Origin: a virus
DNA: 26,581 nucleotides
IMG/VR virus record: IMGVR_UViG_3300032083_000703
Span: 1 to 26,581 of that record
Direction: 5' to 3' (one strand)
Numbering within the stretch: position 1 is the first letter of the stretch; the number at the start of each line of letters is the position of its first letter. Of this stretch, positions 21,539 through 25,908 are shown one piece after another. The translations under genes and the position numbers were made by a program. The notes under the pieces are model-generated. The model did no database searches. It worked only from the letters and a program-made list of their open reading frames with translations, and had not been told where the DNA came from.

Positions 21539-23258
21539 TCCAATTACCTCCTACTTTATATTCGCCTGTTAAATTACATCGCATGTTAAATTGCTCTGTT
21601 ACCTTTTCAATACTCTCAACACCTAATCTACCAACACAATCTGCTTGAGATTCTTTTACTTGTAGTTGCCATTCATCATGTATGTTAGCTACAAACTTAG
21701 CATCAAAGGTATTAAGTTGTATTAATTGATATAAGTTTATCATAGCTTGTTTCATAACAATAGCACCTCCACCTTGTAGTAAAGTATTAAGAGAAGAATG
21801 TTGACTTCTTACATGTATTCTTCTACCATCAATACCTTTTAAGAAACCTCTGTTAGAAGCCTGTTGAACTCTATCTTTTAGTTTCTTTAAGGCAGGTAAG
21901 TTAGCAAAGAATCTTTTCTTTAAAGCTTTACCTTTCTTTATATCACCATTAATAATACTACCTATCTTAGCATCTCCTGCTCCATATATTAAAGCATATA
22001 TAAATGTCTTAGCTTGGTCACGAGTTTTTAATCCTGCTAATTTCTGATTGGTTGAATGTATATCTCCGTTAATAACTTCTTCAATATAATCAGCATCGTT
22101 CATGTAATGTGCTAACATTCTAAGTTCAAGACCACTAGCATCTATACCTACAAGTCTATATCCTTCTGGTACAGTCCAACAAGAACGACATTCCTTACCA
22201 TAAGGACTATGTATGTTAGGAACTTGAGCCATGTTAGGACCTCTATGTGTCATTCTACCTGTAATAGTTCCGTTAGGTATAACTCTACCATGAACTCTAT
22301 CATCTTTTAATTCATCTATCCATGATGATACTTGTGCAATTCTTTTTTGATACAGTAAAAAGTCAGCTATAAGTTTAGCTTCTGTTATATGCTCAATCTT
22401 TTTAAGTGTAGCTTCATCTACAATAGGTTGACCAGTAGGAGTAAACCTTTCTGGTTTCCAACCAAAGTCTATAAGATATTCTCCTATCTGTTTACGACTA
22501 CCTAAATTAAACTCAACTAATTTCTTACGCATAAATGGTTCGTGATTGTTTGATGTAAGTATATTAGAATACTCCTCATCAGTAAGTCCTCTCTTACTTA
22601 ACTCTCCATCTTTTCTAATGTAAGGAGTTACAAGTTTATCATCAACCCATTTAGGTTTAAATGTTTTTTGAACCTCATCTTCTACATCTGCCATGTTTTG
22701 TTTTAGTTTTGCTAACAAAGTCATAGCTTGTTTACTATCAAAATAAAATCCAGTCCTCTCTTGTTCACGCATTATTACAGCAGTTAATTGTTCTAAATCA
22801 AAAGACTGTTTACTAAATCCCATACCTTCTTTCTGTAAGAATTTATATACAGCTTCGTTAAGAACCACATCTTGCACACAATAATCTAACATCTGTGGTG
22901 TGTAGTTGTCAAACTCTGGTTGCTCTTGTTTAGGTATGCCTAATCTATAACCCCAAGTTTTTAAACTATGTCCGTTCTCTCTGATAGGATTATATAATCT
23001 TGACATAACTAATGTATCAATAATCTTTCCAGAGTATGTAAAGTTAAATAACTTTTTAAGTACCGGTAAATCAAAACCTATAATGTTATGACCAATTAAA
23101 GTCTTAGCACTTCTTAATAAATCTAAACCATCTTCGAGTTCATCTGGTCCAAACTTATATGTAGTACCATCAACTTCTTTAGCTACAATACACCATACTT
23201 TTGTAGCATCAAGGTCATCTGTTTCAATATCAAATACTATATTAGAAATCTTCTGCAT
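21525..23258 (-). CDS. T7-type family A DNA polymerase with proofreading domain
   Basis: 577 residues from the ATG at 23258, chosen over an upstream ATG (23309) because GGAGG stands in front of it and the exonuclease motif then starts at residue 8. Exonuclease: Asp10 and Glu12 (FDIET), Asn58 and Asp63 (GHNIIGFD), Tyr126-x3-Asp130. Polymerase: motif A Asp373 and Glu378 (GIDASGLELR), motif B Lys417-x3-Tyr421 (KTFIYALIYGAG), motif C His527-Asp528-Glu529 (HDEWQLQV). Motif B has Tyr where T7 has Tyr526 and E. coli Pol I Phe762. Both catalytic centres are intact, so this should be the replicative enzyme. It is about 130 residues shorter than T7 gp5 (704); most of the missing length probably includes the thioredoxin-binding insertion. 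It overlaps the primase-helicase by 17 bases. Confidence 0.93.
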   Translation of the reverse strand: MQKISNIVFDIETDDLDATKVWCIVAKEVDGTTYKFGPDELEDGLDLLRSAKTLIGHNIIGFDLPVLKKLFNFTYSGKIIDTLVMSRLYNPIRENGHSLKTWGYRLGIPKQEQPEFDNYTPQMLDYCVQDVVLNEAVYKFLQKEGMGFSKQSFDLEQLTAVIMREQERTGFYFDSKQAMTLLAKLKQNMADVEDEVQKTFKPKWVDDKLVTPYIRKDGELSKRGLTDEEYSNILTSNNHEPFMRKKLVEFNLGSRKQIGEYLIDFGWKPERFTPTGQPIVDEATLKKIEHITEAKLIADFLLYQKRIAQVSSWIDELKDDRVHGRVIPNGTITGRMTHRGPNMAQVPNIHSPYGKECRSCWTVPEGYRLVGIDASGLELRMLAHYMNDADYIEEVINGDIHSTNQKLAGLKTRDQAKTFIYALIYGAGDAKIGSIINGDIKKGKALKKRFFANLPALKKLKDRVQQASNRGFLKGIDGRRIHVRSQHSSLNTLLQGGGAIVMKQAMINLYQLIQLNTFDAKFVANIHDEWQLQVKESQADCVGRLGVESIEKVTEQFNMRCNLTGEYKVGGNWSETH

Positions 23259-24903
23259 CAAATGTTTCCTCCTCTGATACTTCATGTAATCTACCTGTAT
23301 CAATATCATATCTTAAACTACAAGCCATTCCTGTATCTCCTGTGTATCTTGATTTCAATACACGAACTTTAGTTATGTTAGCCTCATCAGGATTCTCTGC
23401 CTGTTGATTTCTTTCTAAAGCTATAACACAATCTGATAGTTGTGCAATACCTTGTGAACCTTTTAGATGTGATAGAGATACTTGTATTCCCTTTTCATGT
23501 CCTCTATCTCCTTGTGCTCTACGCAAATGTGATACTAATATCATACCTACTCCTGTTTCTTCTACAAGACTACGCAATCTATTCATAAGCATATCAATAC
23601 CTCTGCGTTCATCTCCTTCAGTAAGCACATTAACAAGCATGTGCAAGTGGTCAACTACTACCCAATCACACTCGCACCCTACAATAATATACCTTAACTT
23701 AGAAAATATTTCATCTATATCAGTAGCCCCTAAGTGTGCATGGATAAATACTCTACCTTCTTGTATTGCACTATCAAACAAAGTGTGTAGTTCTTCTTCT
23801 GTATATTTACTTCTTTTCTCTGATAAATATATTCTATCGTTAGCTTCAATAGATACAATACCATCAGCAGTTCTTATCCAATTTTCTTCTAGTGCTATGA
23901 TACCAACATTATCTTCTGTGTTCTTTATAAGATGATGTTCCAACTCCCTAGTGACACTAGACTTACCTAGTCCTGTGCCACCGGTAAGAGTTACGAGTTC
24001 TCCTTTACGCATACCATATAACTTCTTGTTCAATCCTTCCCAAGGATATGCAATACTTTCTTTCTCCTCTCTGTTTAACCAATCGTTCTTTTTACTAGAC
24101 AACTCCATGATACCAGAGGGAGTATAAGTCTTAGCTTCCCACCATGCAGTAGAAAACTCTTGAAACTTTTTCTTAGCTAACATCTCGTTAGCATCTTTAT
24201 ATCCATTAGGTAAGTTTATTATCTTAGCTTTACTTGGTTTAAGTATTCTTGCTACCTGTCGTGAAGCTTCAATACCTGCCTTGTCGTTATCAAAACATAA
24301 GACTACATTATCAAAGCTTTCTACAAACTCAATACTTTCTCGTATATCTTTAACAGCAGATGAAGCACCTCGTTTAATTGATACTACACTAGACTTGCCT
24401 TGCATTAATTCATAGACTGCCATAGCATCACATTCACCTTCTGTTATGGTTAAATACTTACCACCTTTGTTACGATACAACTGCTCTCCGAACAATCCTG
24501 TACCTTGAAATGTACCATTACATGCAAAGTTTTTATTGTCAACATACCTAGTCTTAGTAGCAACTATCTCACTACCATTATGAAAAGGGTAGATGTGTTG
24601 CTTGACTTGACCATTGTGGTCTTTAACAATCTTAACACCATACTTCCTAGCAGTCTGCTCTGATATATTTCTATCAGTCAAAGCTCCATATATTCCTGTA
24701 TAAGAATTTAGGAAAGATGTTTCTGGTTGTTTCATGGGTACAATAGTATTAGTATTTGTACTCATATCATCTGCATTGTCATAGTCTGGAATGAAAGCAT
24801 TACAGCTAAAACATTTAGCAGACCCATCAGCATTTAAAGAAACAGCATCACTACTATCACACTTTGGACATGGTAGTTTGTGTTTAATAAATTGTGTGTT
24901 CAT
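23242..24903 (-). CDS. T7 gp4-like primase-helicase
   Basis: 553 residues, near the 566 of T7 gp4. It unwinds the fork and lays down RNA primers. Zinc ribbon: Cys12, Cys15, Cys31, Cys34 (CPKC...CFSC). TOPRIM primase core: Glu155 (EGECDAM) and Asp205-Asn-Asp207 (DNDKAG). Helicase: Walker A GGTGLGKSS at 308-316, a Glu pair at 339-340 (ALEEN) in the position of T7's catalytic Glu, Walker B Asp418 (VVVDHLHM), then SHLRR at 458-462. The last residues, EEETFDAEDF, form an acidic tail ending in Phe, as in T7 gp4, where it docks on the polymerase. GGAG precedes the ATG. The gap upstream is the largest inside this operon's replication genes and folds into a structured leader. The neighbours (SSB, polymerase) complete the replisome. 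Confidence 0.95.
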   Translation of the reverse strand: MNTQFIKHKLPCPKCDSSDAVSLNADGSAKCFSCNAFIPDYDNADDMSTNTNTIVPMKQPETSFLNSYTGIYGALTDRNISEQTARKYGVKIVKDHNGQVKQHIYPFHNGSEIVATKTRYVDNKNFACNGTFQGTGLFGEQLYRNKGGKYLTITEGECDAMAVYELMQGKSSVVSIKRGASSAVKDIRESIEFVESFDNVVLCFDNDKAGIEASRQVARILKPSKAKIINLPNGYKDANEMLAKKKFQEFSTAWWEAKTYTPSGIMELSSKKNDWLNREEKESIAYPWEGLNKKLYGMRKGELVTLTGGTGLGKSSVTRELEHHLIKNTEDNVGIIALEENWIRTADGIVSIEANDRIYLSEKRSKYTEEELHTLFDSAIQEGRVFIHAHLGATDIDEIFSKLRYIIVGCECDWVVVDHLHMLVNVLTEGDERRGIDMLMNRLRSLVEETGVGMILVSHLRRAQGDRGHEKGIQVSLSHLKGSQGIAQLSDCVIALERNQQAENPDEANITKVRVLKSRYTGDTGMACSLRYDIDTGRLHEVSEEETFDAEDF

Positions 24904-24924
24904 ATTCTATCTCCTGTAAAAAGT

Positions 24925-25017
24925 GAGGCGTTGTTTATAGGATGCTTATATAAACCCATCCAACAAGGAATATTCCTTTAAGTGCCTTCCTGTACTAATC
25001 GCTTAGTAGCACACCTC
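24925..25017 (-). promoter_or_regulatory. Folded 5' leader of the primase-helicase gene
   Basis: Non-coding. Read on the - strand, GAGGUGU (25017-25011) can pair with ACGCCUC (24931-24925) with one G-U pair, which on the + strand would be a C-A mismatch; this favours a - strand RNA. Inside lie three hairpins: UACUAA-GCGA-UUAGUA (25008-24993, GNRA-type loop), AAGGAAUAUUCCUU (24978-24965) and GGAUG/CAUCC (24961-24940). ACUUUUU follows, then the GGAG of the primase gene. Possible roles are attenuation, RNase III processing or ligand sensing. Confidence 0.45.
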
Positions 25018-25023
25018 GTTGTA

Positions 25024-25326
25024 TTACGATACCTCGTTTAAAGAATCATCTTCATCTGAAGTTTCTTCTTCAATAGTTGGTCCACCATCTTCTGTTGGTG
25101 TTTCAACTTCTGTTGGTGTTTCCACCACAGCTTCAGGGCAATCAGCTAGTAATGTTTCAAGCTGACCTTGATGCCCCTGTGTAGCAAAGTTTAGTGCTTC
25201 AGTTAAAGTATTTAATGTTCCCATTTTGTTTATGCTAATAGTAGCACTCATTCTGGAATCACTATTCTCTATCTTTGAAACATCATAAACTGTTTCGCCA
25301 CTCTCGTTATTGATGGTAATAATCAT
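25024..25326 (-). CDS. Small protein with acidic repeat tail, function unknown
   Basis: 100 residues. The first 65 form a compact, mixed domain (start MIITINNESGETVYDVSKI); from about 66 the protein is Glu/Asp/Thr/Pro-rich, with a tandem VETPTE repeat and a run of Glu and Asp near the end. It follows the SSB gene by two bases without a clear Shine-Dalgarno of its own (coupled). An acidic tail in a replication operon may act as a DNA mimic or protein-docking tail, but unlike the SSB and helicase it does not end in Phe. Family unknown. Confidence 0.6.
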   Translation of the reverse strand: MIITINNESGETVYDVSKIENSDSRMSATISINKMGTLNTLTEALNFATQGHQGQLETLLADCPEAVVETPTEVETPTEDGGPTIEEETSDEDDSLNEVS

Positions 25327-25328
25327 AG

Positions 25329-25742
25329 TTAAAACTCCTCGTTATCATCAAAAAATTCTGACCCATCTTCAGCTTTGTATTCAACAAGCTCAACAACCTG
25401 AACAGCTTGGAGGTCAAGACTTTTACCAGACTTACCTGCATACTCCCATTCAAATTCGCTACATTGAACTCTAACTTTAGAGCCATTACCTACAGCTAAA
25501 TTAATATCCTGTTTGTTTTGGTCAATCAATCTTGGAGCATTCCTAATCATTCCATTAGGACCATTCACTTTTCGTTTGACAATCAAGGCAGGACCTTCAT
25601 TCATCTGCTTTACTGTATGTCCACGACTTGCAAAATCATCTGCAACAGTCTGGTCAACAACTAAGTTGACTGTATATACAGGTTCAAAAGTCGTATTAGG
25701 TGTCTTAATACTTGCCCAATACGCTGTTCCTTCTACTATCAT
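25329..25742 (-). CDS. Single-stranded DNA-binding protein (gp2.5-type role)
   Basis: 137 residues. A beta-rich N-terminal domain (YWASIKTPNTTFEPVYTVNL, later KVRVQCSEFEWEYAG) suits an OB fold. The acidic C-terminal tail EDGSEFFDDNEEF ends in Phe, the signature of phage SSBs like T7 gp2.5 whose tail contacts polymerase and helicase. It is shorter than T7 gp2.5 (232). AGGAGG stands in front of its ATG, the strongest ribosome site in the window, and a perfect promoter lies about 140 bases upstream, fitting a protein needed in large amounts. It leads the replication genes (acidic protein, primase-helicase, polymerase). The call rests on tail, size and context; direct sequence similarity was not tested. 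Confidence 0.75.
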   Translation of the reverse strand: MIVEGTAYWASIKTPNTTFEPVYTVNLVVDQTVADDFASRGHTVKQMNEGPALIVKRKVNGPNGMIRNAPRLIDQNKQDINLAVGNGSKVRVQCSEFEWEYAGKSGKSLDLQAVQVVELVEYKAEDGSEFFDDNEEF

Positions 25743-25774
25743 ATTTACCTCCTATGATTAAGTTTGAAGTTGTT

Positions 25775-25807
25775 AAAAACTAGGAGAGTTGTGAGCCAAC
25801 TACTCTC
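25775..25807 (-). terminator. Attenuator-like hairpin in the SSB leader
   Basis: On the - strand, GAGAGU (25807-25802) pairs with ACUCUC (25789-25784) around a 12-base loop. CUAG and then UUUUU (25779-25775) follow. A competing pair, CAACU/AGUUG, can form with the upstream part of the leader. The four-base spacer before the U-run and the large loop make it a weak terminator; it lies between the promoter at 25880-25908 and the SSB start. Confidence 0.35.
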
Positions 25808-25879
25808 GGAGTTGTGGTTAGAACCAAACCTACTAATACATGGAGATAGAGGGCTTGTTCGGTTGCTCATTGAGATGCT

Positions 25880-25908
25880 ATTATACACTATTTAATTCTC
25901 CATGTCAA
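25880..25908 (-). promoter_or_regulatory. Perfect-consensus sigma70 promoter of the replication operon
   Basis: On the - strand, TTGACA (25908-25903), a 17-base spacer and TATAAT (25885-25880). All 12 bases match and spacing is ideal. It sits over the end of the 61-aa gene and would start near 25873, giving a leader of about 130 bases before SSB. This is probably the main host-polymerase promoter for SSB, primase-helicase and DNA polymerase. Confidence 0.75.

Follow-up and report, generated by a model that had tools for sequence, protein, structure and literature searches.

The mobile regulatory cassette of T4-type phages appears to be the nearest idea to the RNA analysed here. These cassettes (PeSLs), of which Arbiol et al. 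reportedly gave an account in 2010, are said to be small intergenic structured units that are shuffled between genes and phages, each consisting of an early promoter plus a stem-loop. The RNA of this study, termed type A, is likewise a small, shuffled, structured intergenic cassette, and the same cassette is found at different gene borders of different phages. In contrast to the stem-loop and early promoter of PeSLs, type A contains a covarying pseudoknot. In the window, i.e. the whole stretch of viral DNA under analysis (26,581 nt), a scan of the region for sigma-70-like promoters gave two weak matches with 1.0 expected.

SAR11 bacteria and their phages count among the most abundant biological entities in the sea. 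Mobile hairpins are known as REP, Rickettsia palindromic and double-hairpin elements. Like type A, they are short, devoid of ORFs, intergenic, foldable, recurrent and sometimes nested. Type A differs from REP-type elements in its specific pseudoknot, in its one or two copies per positive phage record and in its strand specificity. Small self-cleaving ribozymes (pistol, twister, HDV-like) combine compact pseudoknotted cores with variable peripheral stems, and some reside in phages. The pseudoknotted core is common to both, whereas type A has neither an Rfam match nor a recognised active-site signature.

Two further systems are documented. PMC3014915 describes a pseudoknot in the T4 gene 32 leader with UUAA(A) repeats beside it. 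This translational operator of the single-stranded DNA-binding protein (SSB) shares with type A a pseudoknot in phage replication mRNA. It lies upstream of the start of SSB itself, whereas type A lies downstream of SSB and before the primase, is also found beside other genes and has a closing stem (P1). The position of the element, 3′ of SSB and of a further ORF, thus departs from a gene 32-type SSB operator. In the Pelagibacter methionine genes, the SAM-II-like motif is a simple pseudoknot with covarying stems and conserved loops, typically within 10 nt of the start codons (PMC2704228). Both are simple covarying pseudoknots, and the motif comes from the likely host lineage; type A differs in being tied to no gene class, in its closing stem and in having no Rfam match. 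Among the literature matches listed, which come mostly from outside subscription journals and were judged by titles and the starts of abstracts, none reports a structured RNA of pelagiphages like type A.

As a defined RNA family with a pseudoknot, a 61-nt copy and natural presence/absence variants, type A is directly testable. It bears on whether phages trade RNA modules in the way they trade genes, and on what intercistronic pseudoknots do.

Locus and conserved fold

Among annotated phages, the primase of the window is closest to those of the Pelagibacter phages HTVC103P and HTVC104P (45–46% identity), and the window is therefore probably derived from a pelagiphage-like virus. Since it comprises a whole record and the records of relatives reach ~54 kb, it is probably a fragment. 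ARAGORN detects no tRNA or tmRNA gene in the window, and a tRNA reading is rejected.

The original prediction described 120 bases kept non-coding before the primase-helicase gene. This is correct: no ORF of at least 60 aa overlaps 24904-25023 on the minus strand. It also named the gap an SSB-primase intergenic region, which is right for the primase side, while the immediate upstream neighbour is a 100-aa ORF with SSB beyond it (Table 1). A U-run and then the ribosome site AGGAG follow P1, as had been predicted.

Table 1. Positions of the type A copy, its parts and the neighbouring genes in the window
Feature	Position	Strand	Remarks
SSB, Gp2.5-like	25329-25742	-	phrog_112; one gene further upstream than the 100-aa ORF
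Upstream gene, 100-aa ORF without family	25024-25326	-	stop codon ends 6 nt ahead of the type A element
Type A pseudoknot RNA, whole element, subtype A2	24925-25017	-	93 nt; model R1 match 24922-25020
P1 closing stem, 5′ arm GAGGU	25013-25017	-	partner 24925-24929
P2, 5′ arm GUGC	25009-25012	-	4-bp hairpin; 4/4 pairs change on both sides in A2
A2-subtype hairpin UACUAA-GCGA-UUAGUA	24993-25008	-	GNRA loop; inside P2 loop
Pseudoknot, 5′ strand AGGAA	24987-24991	-	in P2 loop; partner 24966-24970
P2, 3′ arm GCAC	24982-24985	-	pairs with P2 5′ arm (A2 alignment)
Joining strand UUAAAG	24976-24981	-	read from sequence
Pseudoknot, 3′ strand UUCCU	24966-24970	-	middle hairpin of the original prediction
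P4	24933-24964	-	
P4, outer part GUU/AAC	24962-24964 / 24933-24935	-	without covariation
P4, inner hairpin GGAUG/CAUCC	24957-24961 / 24940-24944	-	inside P4
P1 closing stem, 3′ arm GCCUC	24925-24929	-	innermost G forms the U.G wobble
Ribosome-binding site AGGAG of the primase-helicase gene	24911-24915	-	read from sequence
Downstream gene, primase-helicase	23242-24903	-	phrog_239, E 6.6e-173

By sequence comparison, type A is a closing stem (P1) around a predicted H-type pseudoknot, lying in sense orientation between two replication-region genes. Positions 25017 and 24925, between which the original prediction had placed its leader, are the exact outer ends of P1. Within that leader a closing stem and three hairpins had been drawn. 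P1, the GCGA hairpin and GGAUG/CAUCC are retained; the middle hairpin (AAGGAAUAUUCCUU) more probably represents the pseudoknot's 3′ strand, in which UUCCU pairs with AGGAA of the P2 loop.

Across the family, GGAU or GGAA in the P2 loop pairs with AUCC or UUCC located 3′ of the joiner UUAAAG or UUAAAU. An optional P4 comes next, then ACAACG (ACAUUA in L154, ACACCG in L175) and finally the 3′ arm of P1. Copies range from ~56 to 140 nt, one of them (L048) measuring 61 nt. We define type A by P1, P2, the pseudoknot and UUAAA, all stems pairing, and each of these is present in the window copy. The match of model R1 to this copy (66.7 bits, E 8.2e-15) arises by construction, the window copy being one of the 29 training sequences.

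Single-sequence folding was discarded as evidence, since it fails to show the pseudoknot and its z-scores for the window are weak: -0.74 for the 141-nt region (43/200 shuffles equally good) and -1.51 for the 93-nt element (11/200). The fold of P1, P2 and pseudoknot is decided by comparison of related sequences and not by folding energy. Alignment A2 comprises 29 sequences, most of them found with a descriptor that includes UUAAA, P2, four of the five pseudoknot pairs, a P1 of at least 5 bp and the wobble G. L154 and L175 were added by hand, L018 and L028 were omitted (P2 misaligned by MAFFT), L167, L170 and L172 were held out, and L081, L082, L004 and L009, with a long P4 insert, stayed unaligned. 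In A2 the covariation score is 0.306, compared with 0.088 ± 0.010 after shuffling (0/500) and 0.033–0.087 with slid partners, controls which ignore the relatedness of the sequences. Of the 602 paired cells 93.0% hold a pair (shuffle mean 77.1), and 91 cells are changed on both sides (shuffle mean 30.0), two of the A2 measures being equalled by 1 and 4 of 500 shuffles.

The individual stems contribute unequally. In P1, 6 of 8 pairs vary on both sides, and the three outermost are unpaired in 10–13 of the 29 sequences. The pseudoknot keeps equivalent pairs in 29/29 sequences and changes on both sides at 2 of 5 pairs, one of which is UA in 15 sequences and AU in 14. Of the 8 P1 pairs RNAalifold recovers 5, together with the whole of P2 and an inner stem of P4. 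P2 exists in ten versions, each with its complement (GUGC, UAGC, AUGC, UUGC, GUCC, GCUC, UGGU, UAUC, AUUC and UAGU), which is hard to explain other than by a real stem. Nineteen columns of A2 are invariant, including UUAAA, which is identical in all aligned copies and also served as the search anchor.

Because the members of A2 were mostly chosen by a pairing descriptor, covariation was counted again in a second alignment (A6), whose 16 sequences were collected without a pairing criterion from an exact inserted module and the anchors TTAAAG and AACAACG. The misfits L162 and L191 were retained, misaligned; L170, L172, L178 and L094 were left out, and L346 stands for the same element in L186. 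The score of A6 is 0.308, against 0.126 ± 0.014 in shuffles that likewise ignore relatedness (0/500). Its cells are paired in 93.1% of 360 (shuffle mean 79.7), and the count of further pair types is no better than in shuffles (288/500). The exact-module search places the type A frame in 20 of 26 distinct contexts; P2 is fully paired in 18 of the 20, L162 and L191 being the poor fits. Compensatory changes, by which the original prediction proposed to judge the structure, are thus present in both alignments, and comparison establishes the fold and the family at the level of sequence.

Peripheral parts are variable. The GNRA-capped hairpin in the P2 loop is confined to four sequences (window, L020, L154 and L175), in which 87.5% of cells are paired; its pairs are incomplete in L020, L154 and L175, and L175 has a GGGA loop and a C-G to G-C change. 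The inner P4 hairpin GGAUG/CAUCC becomes GAAUG/CAUUC in L154 and GAGUG/CACUC in L175, and the relatives' inserts at the P4 site differ. Other copies have an insert in the UUAAAG loop. Inserts occupy three loop positions, and P1, P2 and the pseudoknot stay intact. The model recovers the held-out copies with a long UUAAAG-loop insert at E 1.6e-12 or better; these are L170, L172 and L167, the last with identical copies in L014 and L184. Many loci from different scans are the same contig, for instance L014 and L167.

Searches in known families and annotated genomes gave few matches. In agreement with the original prediction, which had suggested an Rfam search, Rfam 15 returns no match at the gathering threshold in the window and none at E ≤ 1 for 10 related loci; the one match of the element region, a Drosophila snoRNA at E 1.2, is far below threshold and meaningless. 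The model finds no credible match in 10 marine phage records (best E 0.035). By blastn against annotated phages, the 120-nt gap has no match, and the 81-nt L168 region hits eight chance-like records at E 2 or worse. A 331-nt query across the gap hits 11 records with 8–23% query coverage each; the two Pelagibacter matches and the CHOED matches were rejected, as they lie in primase coding sequence. Two sets of candidates were also put aside. A loose type A pattern in viral contigs gave 53 stretches that are chance-like on reading. In bacterial genomes a loose pattern gave at least 119 stretches, of which 80 were scored with the model. Three reach E < 0.01 with the help of the selecting pattern (L286 1e-4, L241 7e-4, L264 0.009) and are taken as chance because none has P2 plus pseudoknot on reading.

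Strand, position and exchange

The strand of the RNA can be read from P1. Its innermost pair is U.G in 28 of 29 A2 sequences and U-A in one; the opposite strand would give A.C. The wobble G was part of the search rule; opposite it, all 28 sequences with that G have U and none has C. The wobble had been predicted to work in the minus-strand RNA exclusively, and this is borne out. The nearest upstream ORF lies on the same strand in 31 of 34 type A copies. Among the remaining three, no ORF was found for L181, and for L020 and L175 the choice fell on a 51-aa or an overlapping 117-aa ORF. Given the wobble and these same-strand ORFs, the RNA in coding direction is likely the selected molecule.

Type A tends to sit directly behind genes. 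In 27 of 31 copies no more than 25 nt separate P1 from the upstream stop codon (exceptions L165, L011, L154 and L190), many of the 27 being the same primase gap in relatives. Away from the primase this holds at 5 of 9 sites (L046, L176, L177, L187, L189). In the primase gap the next start codon follows ~20 nt past P1 in most copies; at 6 of the 9 other sites the next same-strand start is at least 60 nt away. The adjacency to stop codons may reflect merely where insertions are tolerated.

The occupant of the primase gap changes between relatives. A primase scan of viral contigs (at least 80 matches, best 80 loci kept) shows several alternative RNAs at one place and no single conserved leader in the upstream regions of the 80 closest loci listed. 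Type A occupies 26 of these gaps (one cut), type B 15 and a simple hairpin (type C) 29; other small hairpins and other inserts account for 3 each, other contents for 2, and 2 gaps are truncated, the label C and the other gap labels having been assigned by regular expressions. None is empty among the 78 that could be classified, a deleted gap in relatives being what the original prediction had named as counter-evidence, yet the distant isolate HTVC115P has a primase gap of just 21 nt. The gap of HTVC104P carries a different insert without a model match.

Type A also occurs away from the primase start, in L176, L177, L181, L187, L189, L175, L154 and L190 and as a second copy in the L046 record. 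Positive records have one copy each, and two in 1 of 20. L190/L346 represents another phage group: the window-type records examined contain homologues for 2 of its 25 ORFs, and its portal shares 46% identity with the HTVC023P portal. The core of its type A largely matches four other copies, and the flanks outside P1 differ. At 15 sites the site's own P1 arms form 4–9 consecutive base pairs, on average 7.1 compared with 4.0 for swapped arms (0/20000 permutations). This comparison includes two pairs that belong to the core, arms shared by L174 and L177 and by L175 and L189, and a mismatch after 4 bp in L190, and 65 of 200 swapped arms still reach 5 bp.

Presence and absence vary at a gene end whose protein terminates in GFVIHV. 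Record G003 carries there type A plus a 112-nt type I module. In the 14 relatives listed, seven run directly to the next ribosome site, six have other inserts and one is unclear, and the off-site type A copy of G003 is missing from the relatives examined. Type A copies therefore come and go. On this comparative ground type A is an exchangeable cassette at gene borders, in contigs related to two pelagiphage groups, and its strand and position are likewise established by comparison.

Possible roles

We suggest, with a probability of roughly 45%, that type A is an exchangeable cis-acting intercistronic RNA that would serve as a boundary or stability element on polycistronic mRNA. Transcription across the primase gap, the action in cis and the boundary function are inferred. 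The polycistronic mRNA would then carry type A, which might protect the upstream message at its 3′ end or mark a site for processing, and leave the downstream ribosome site accessible. The neighbouring genes would thereby obtain separate mRNA lifetimes. Such a boundary is consistent with the location of the element downstream of stop codons, with the unobstructed ribosome site and with its replacement by a plain hairpin or another RNA in close relatives. Interchangeability with other RNAs at one border fits a general structural role better than ligand sensing. However, HTVC115P does without the element, as do the seven insert-free relatives at the GFVIHV site. Moreover, a plain hairpin seems to serve equally at the same border, so that the pseudoknot exceeds what a boundary needs; its conservation beyond these needs favours a function of the element itself, i.e. 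catalysis or mobility. The original prediction of an undescribed cis-acting RNA of marine phages accordingly stands for the RNA, its strand, the lack of an Rfam match and the occurrence in pelagiphage-related contigs, its cis action being the inferred part.

A somewhat unlikely alternative is that type A is a selfish mobile RNA-structured element that does the phage no service, its pseudoknot being conserved since mobility needs it. Largely identical cores within dissimilar flanks, across sites and in another phage group, would be expected of such an element, as would presence and absence at one site and P1 arms that vary between sites yet pair (7.1 vs 4.0 at 15 sites). Another module, type I (112 nt), is 97–98% identical in several contexts, and modules are nested in one another in L154 and L014. 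On the other hand, a reverse transcriptase (PF00078) is encoded in 0 of 14 records, some of them fragments, and copies remain at one per positive record, or two in 1 of 20. The P1 evidence is softened by the two core pairs, the shared arms and the 65 of 200 swapped arms that reach 5 bp, and the exchange is explained equally well by ordinary recombination at short flanks that co-infecting phages have in common. A broader picture, to which we attach a low chance, is that pelagiphages carry a set of RNA modules (types A, B, I and inserted M), mobile and nested in one another, whose spread depends on conserved folds and not on proteins. They would enter hairpin loops at gene borders and persist through selection at the RNA level, possibly with catalysis.

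Phages are known to carry small ribozymes, and type A could be a self-cleaving one that cuts the polycistronic message between cistrons. The compact pseudoknotted fold, the 19 invariant columns of A2 (with the anchor UUAAA among them), the U.G that ends P1 in 28 of 29 sequences and the sense orientation between genes would suit it. Without a match to any Rfam family or a recognised cleavage-site signature, this reading is very doubtful.

Type III antitoxin RNAs are pseudoknots as well. An RNA acting in trans or as a decoy, such as a mimic pseudoknot directed against host defence, would agree with an accessory, variable and exchangeable element and with the rows of several modules at a single border (L177, L014). 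Single copies without a tandem array, and the tight fit in the primase gap between the stop codon and the next ribosome site, make it highly improbable.

A transcription attenuator or ligand-sensing leader setting the ratio of SSB to helicase expression, as originally proposed, is scarcely plausible. In the primase gap, the window and many relatives have a U-run after P1, but none follows directly at L174, L176, L177, L187 and L189, so that a stem with a direct U-run is not a feature of every copy. The surrounding genes also differ from site to site: the RNA recurs at further gene borders and in a contig whose genes are mostly unrelated, and in the primase gap most of the 80 relatives listed have another RNA or a plain hairpin in its place. 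For the same reasons a specific tie of type A to SSB or helicase is unlikely. Processing, which the original prediction had offered beside attenuation, may apply. A terminator scan finds no site at 24850-25150; it covers hairpins with loops of 3–8 nt and is therefore no test of P1, whose loop is too large.

Other RNA modules

A second structured RNA precedes the SSB gene itself, at 25761-25887 of the window on the minus strand, with the motif GAGYAACC..AGCCCUCUAUCUCCA..GGUUUGGCU..ACUCCGAGAGUAGUUGGCUC..AACUCUC. By a loose filter the motif is found in 97 of 125 leaders including duplicate contigs, of which 53 are distinct, and is missing in 28, among them L082, L089, L091, L092, L165 and L179. 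In the 33 of 53 that were aligned, 5 of 12 predicted pairs change on both sides, the best being 18 AU/14 GC and 21 CG/10 UA. On reading, GAGAGU may pair alternatively with ACUCUC. Rfam gives no match at gathering for the window and none at E ≤ 1 for the 10 related loci, some of which end short of the leader. Possibly this RNA is an autoregulatory leader of SSB.

Type B is an RNA of ~90–150 nt, depending on the insert, in the primase gap or elsewhere (L012, L010, L001, L024, L175, L154 and others). It has a conserved AAUNAGAACUA..CC, and its stems seem, by eye in alignment A3, to covary: GAGGUUAG/CUAACCUC and GUGGCUAG/CUAGCCAC, with the further variants CCUU/AAGG, ACUU/AAGU and CUGU/ACAG. In L154 a type A2 copy is nested within type B.

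The non-coding 112-nt type I module, TAGACTGATTTTT...CTAGC, lies at L334:8414-8526 on the minus strand. It is 97–98% identical in L334, L026, L031, L032, L092 and L177 and less so in other loci. Two inserted modules were also noted. The first, GTAGTCCATACATAGTATCGGCT, is exact in 37 viral-contig stretches (L014, L026, L164, L175, L187, L190 and others), lying within type A, within a plain hairpin or on its own, and the stems flanking it change yet pair. The second, GAAGUCUG...GGAGUGACGA (GGGUGACGA in L003), is present in L003, L010 and L154; presumably it resembles a kink-turn, with CUGA opposite GUGACGA, an impression from reading. Finally, L177:8839-9400, L168 and L174 are long non-coding stretches between genes, with several foldable-looking modules in a row.
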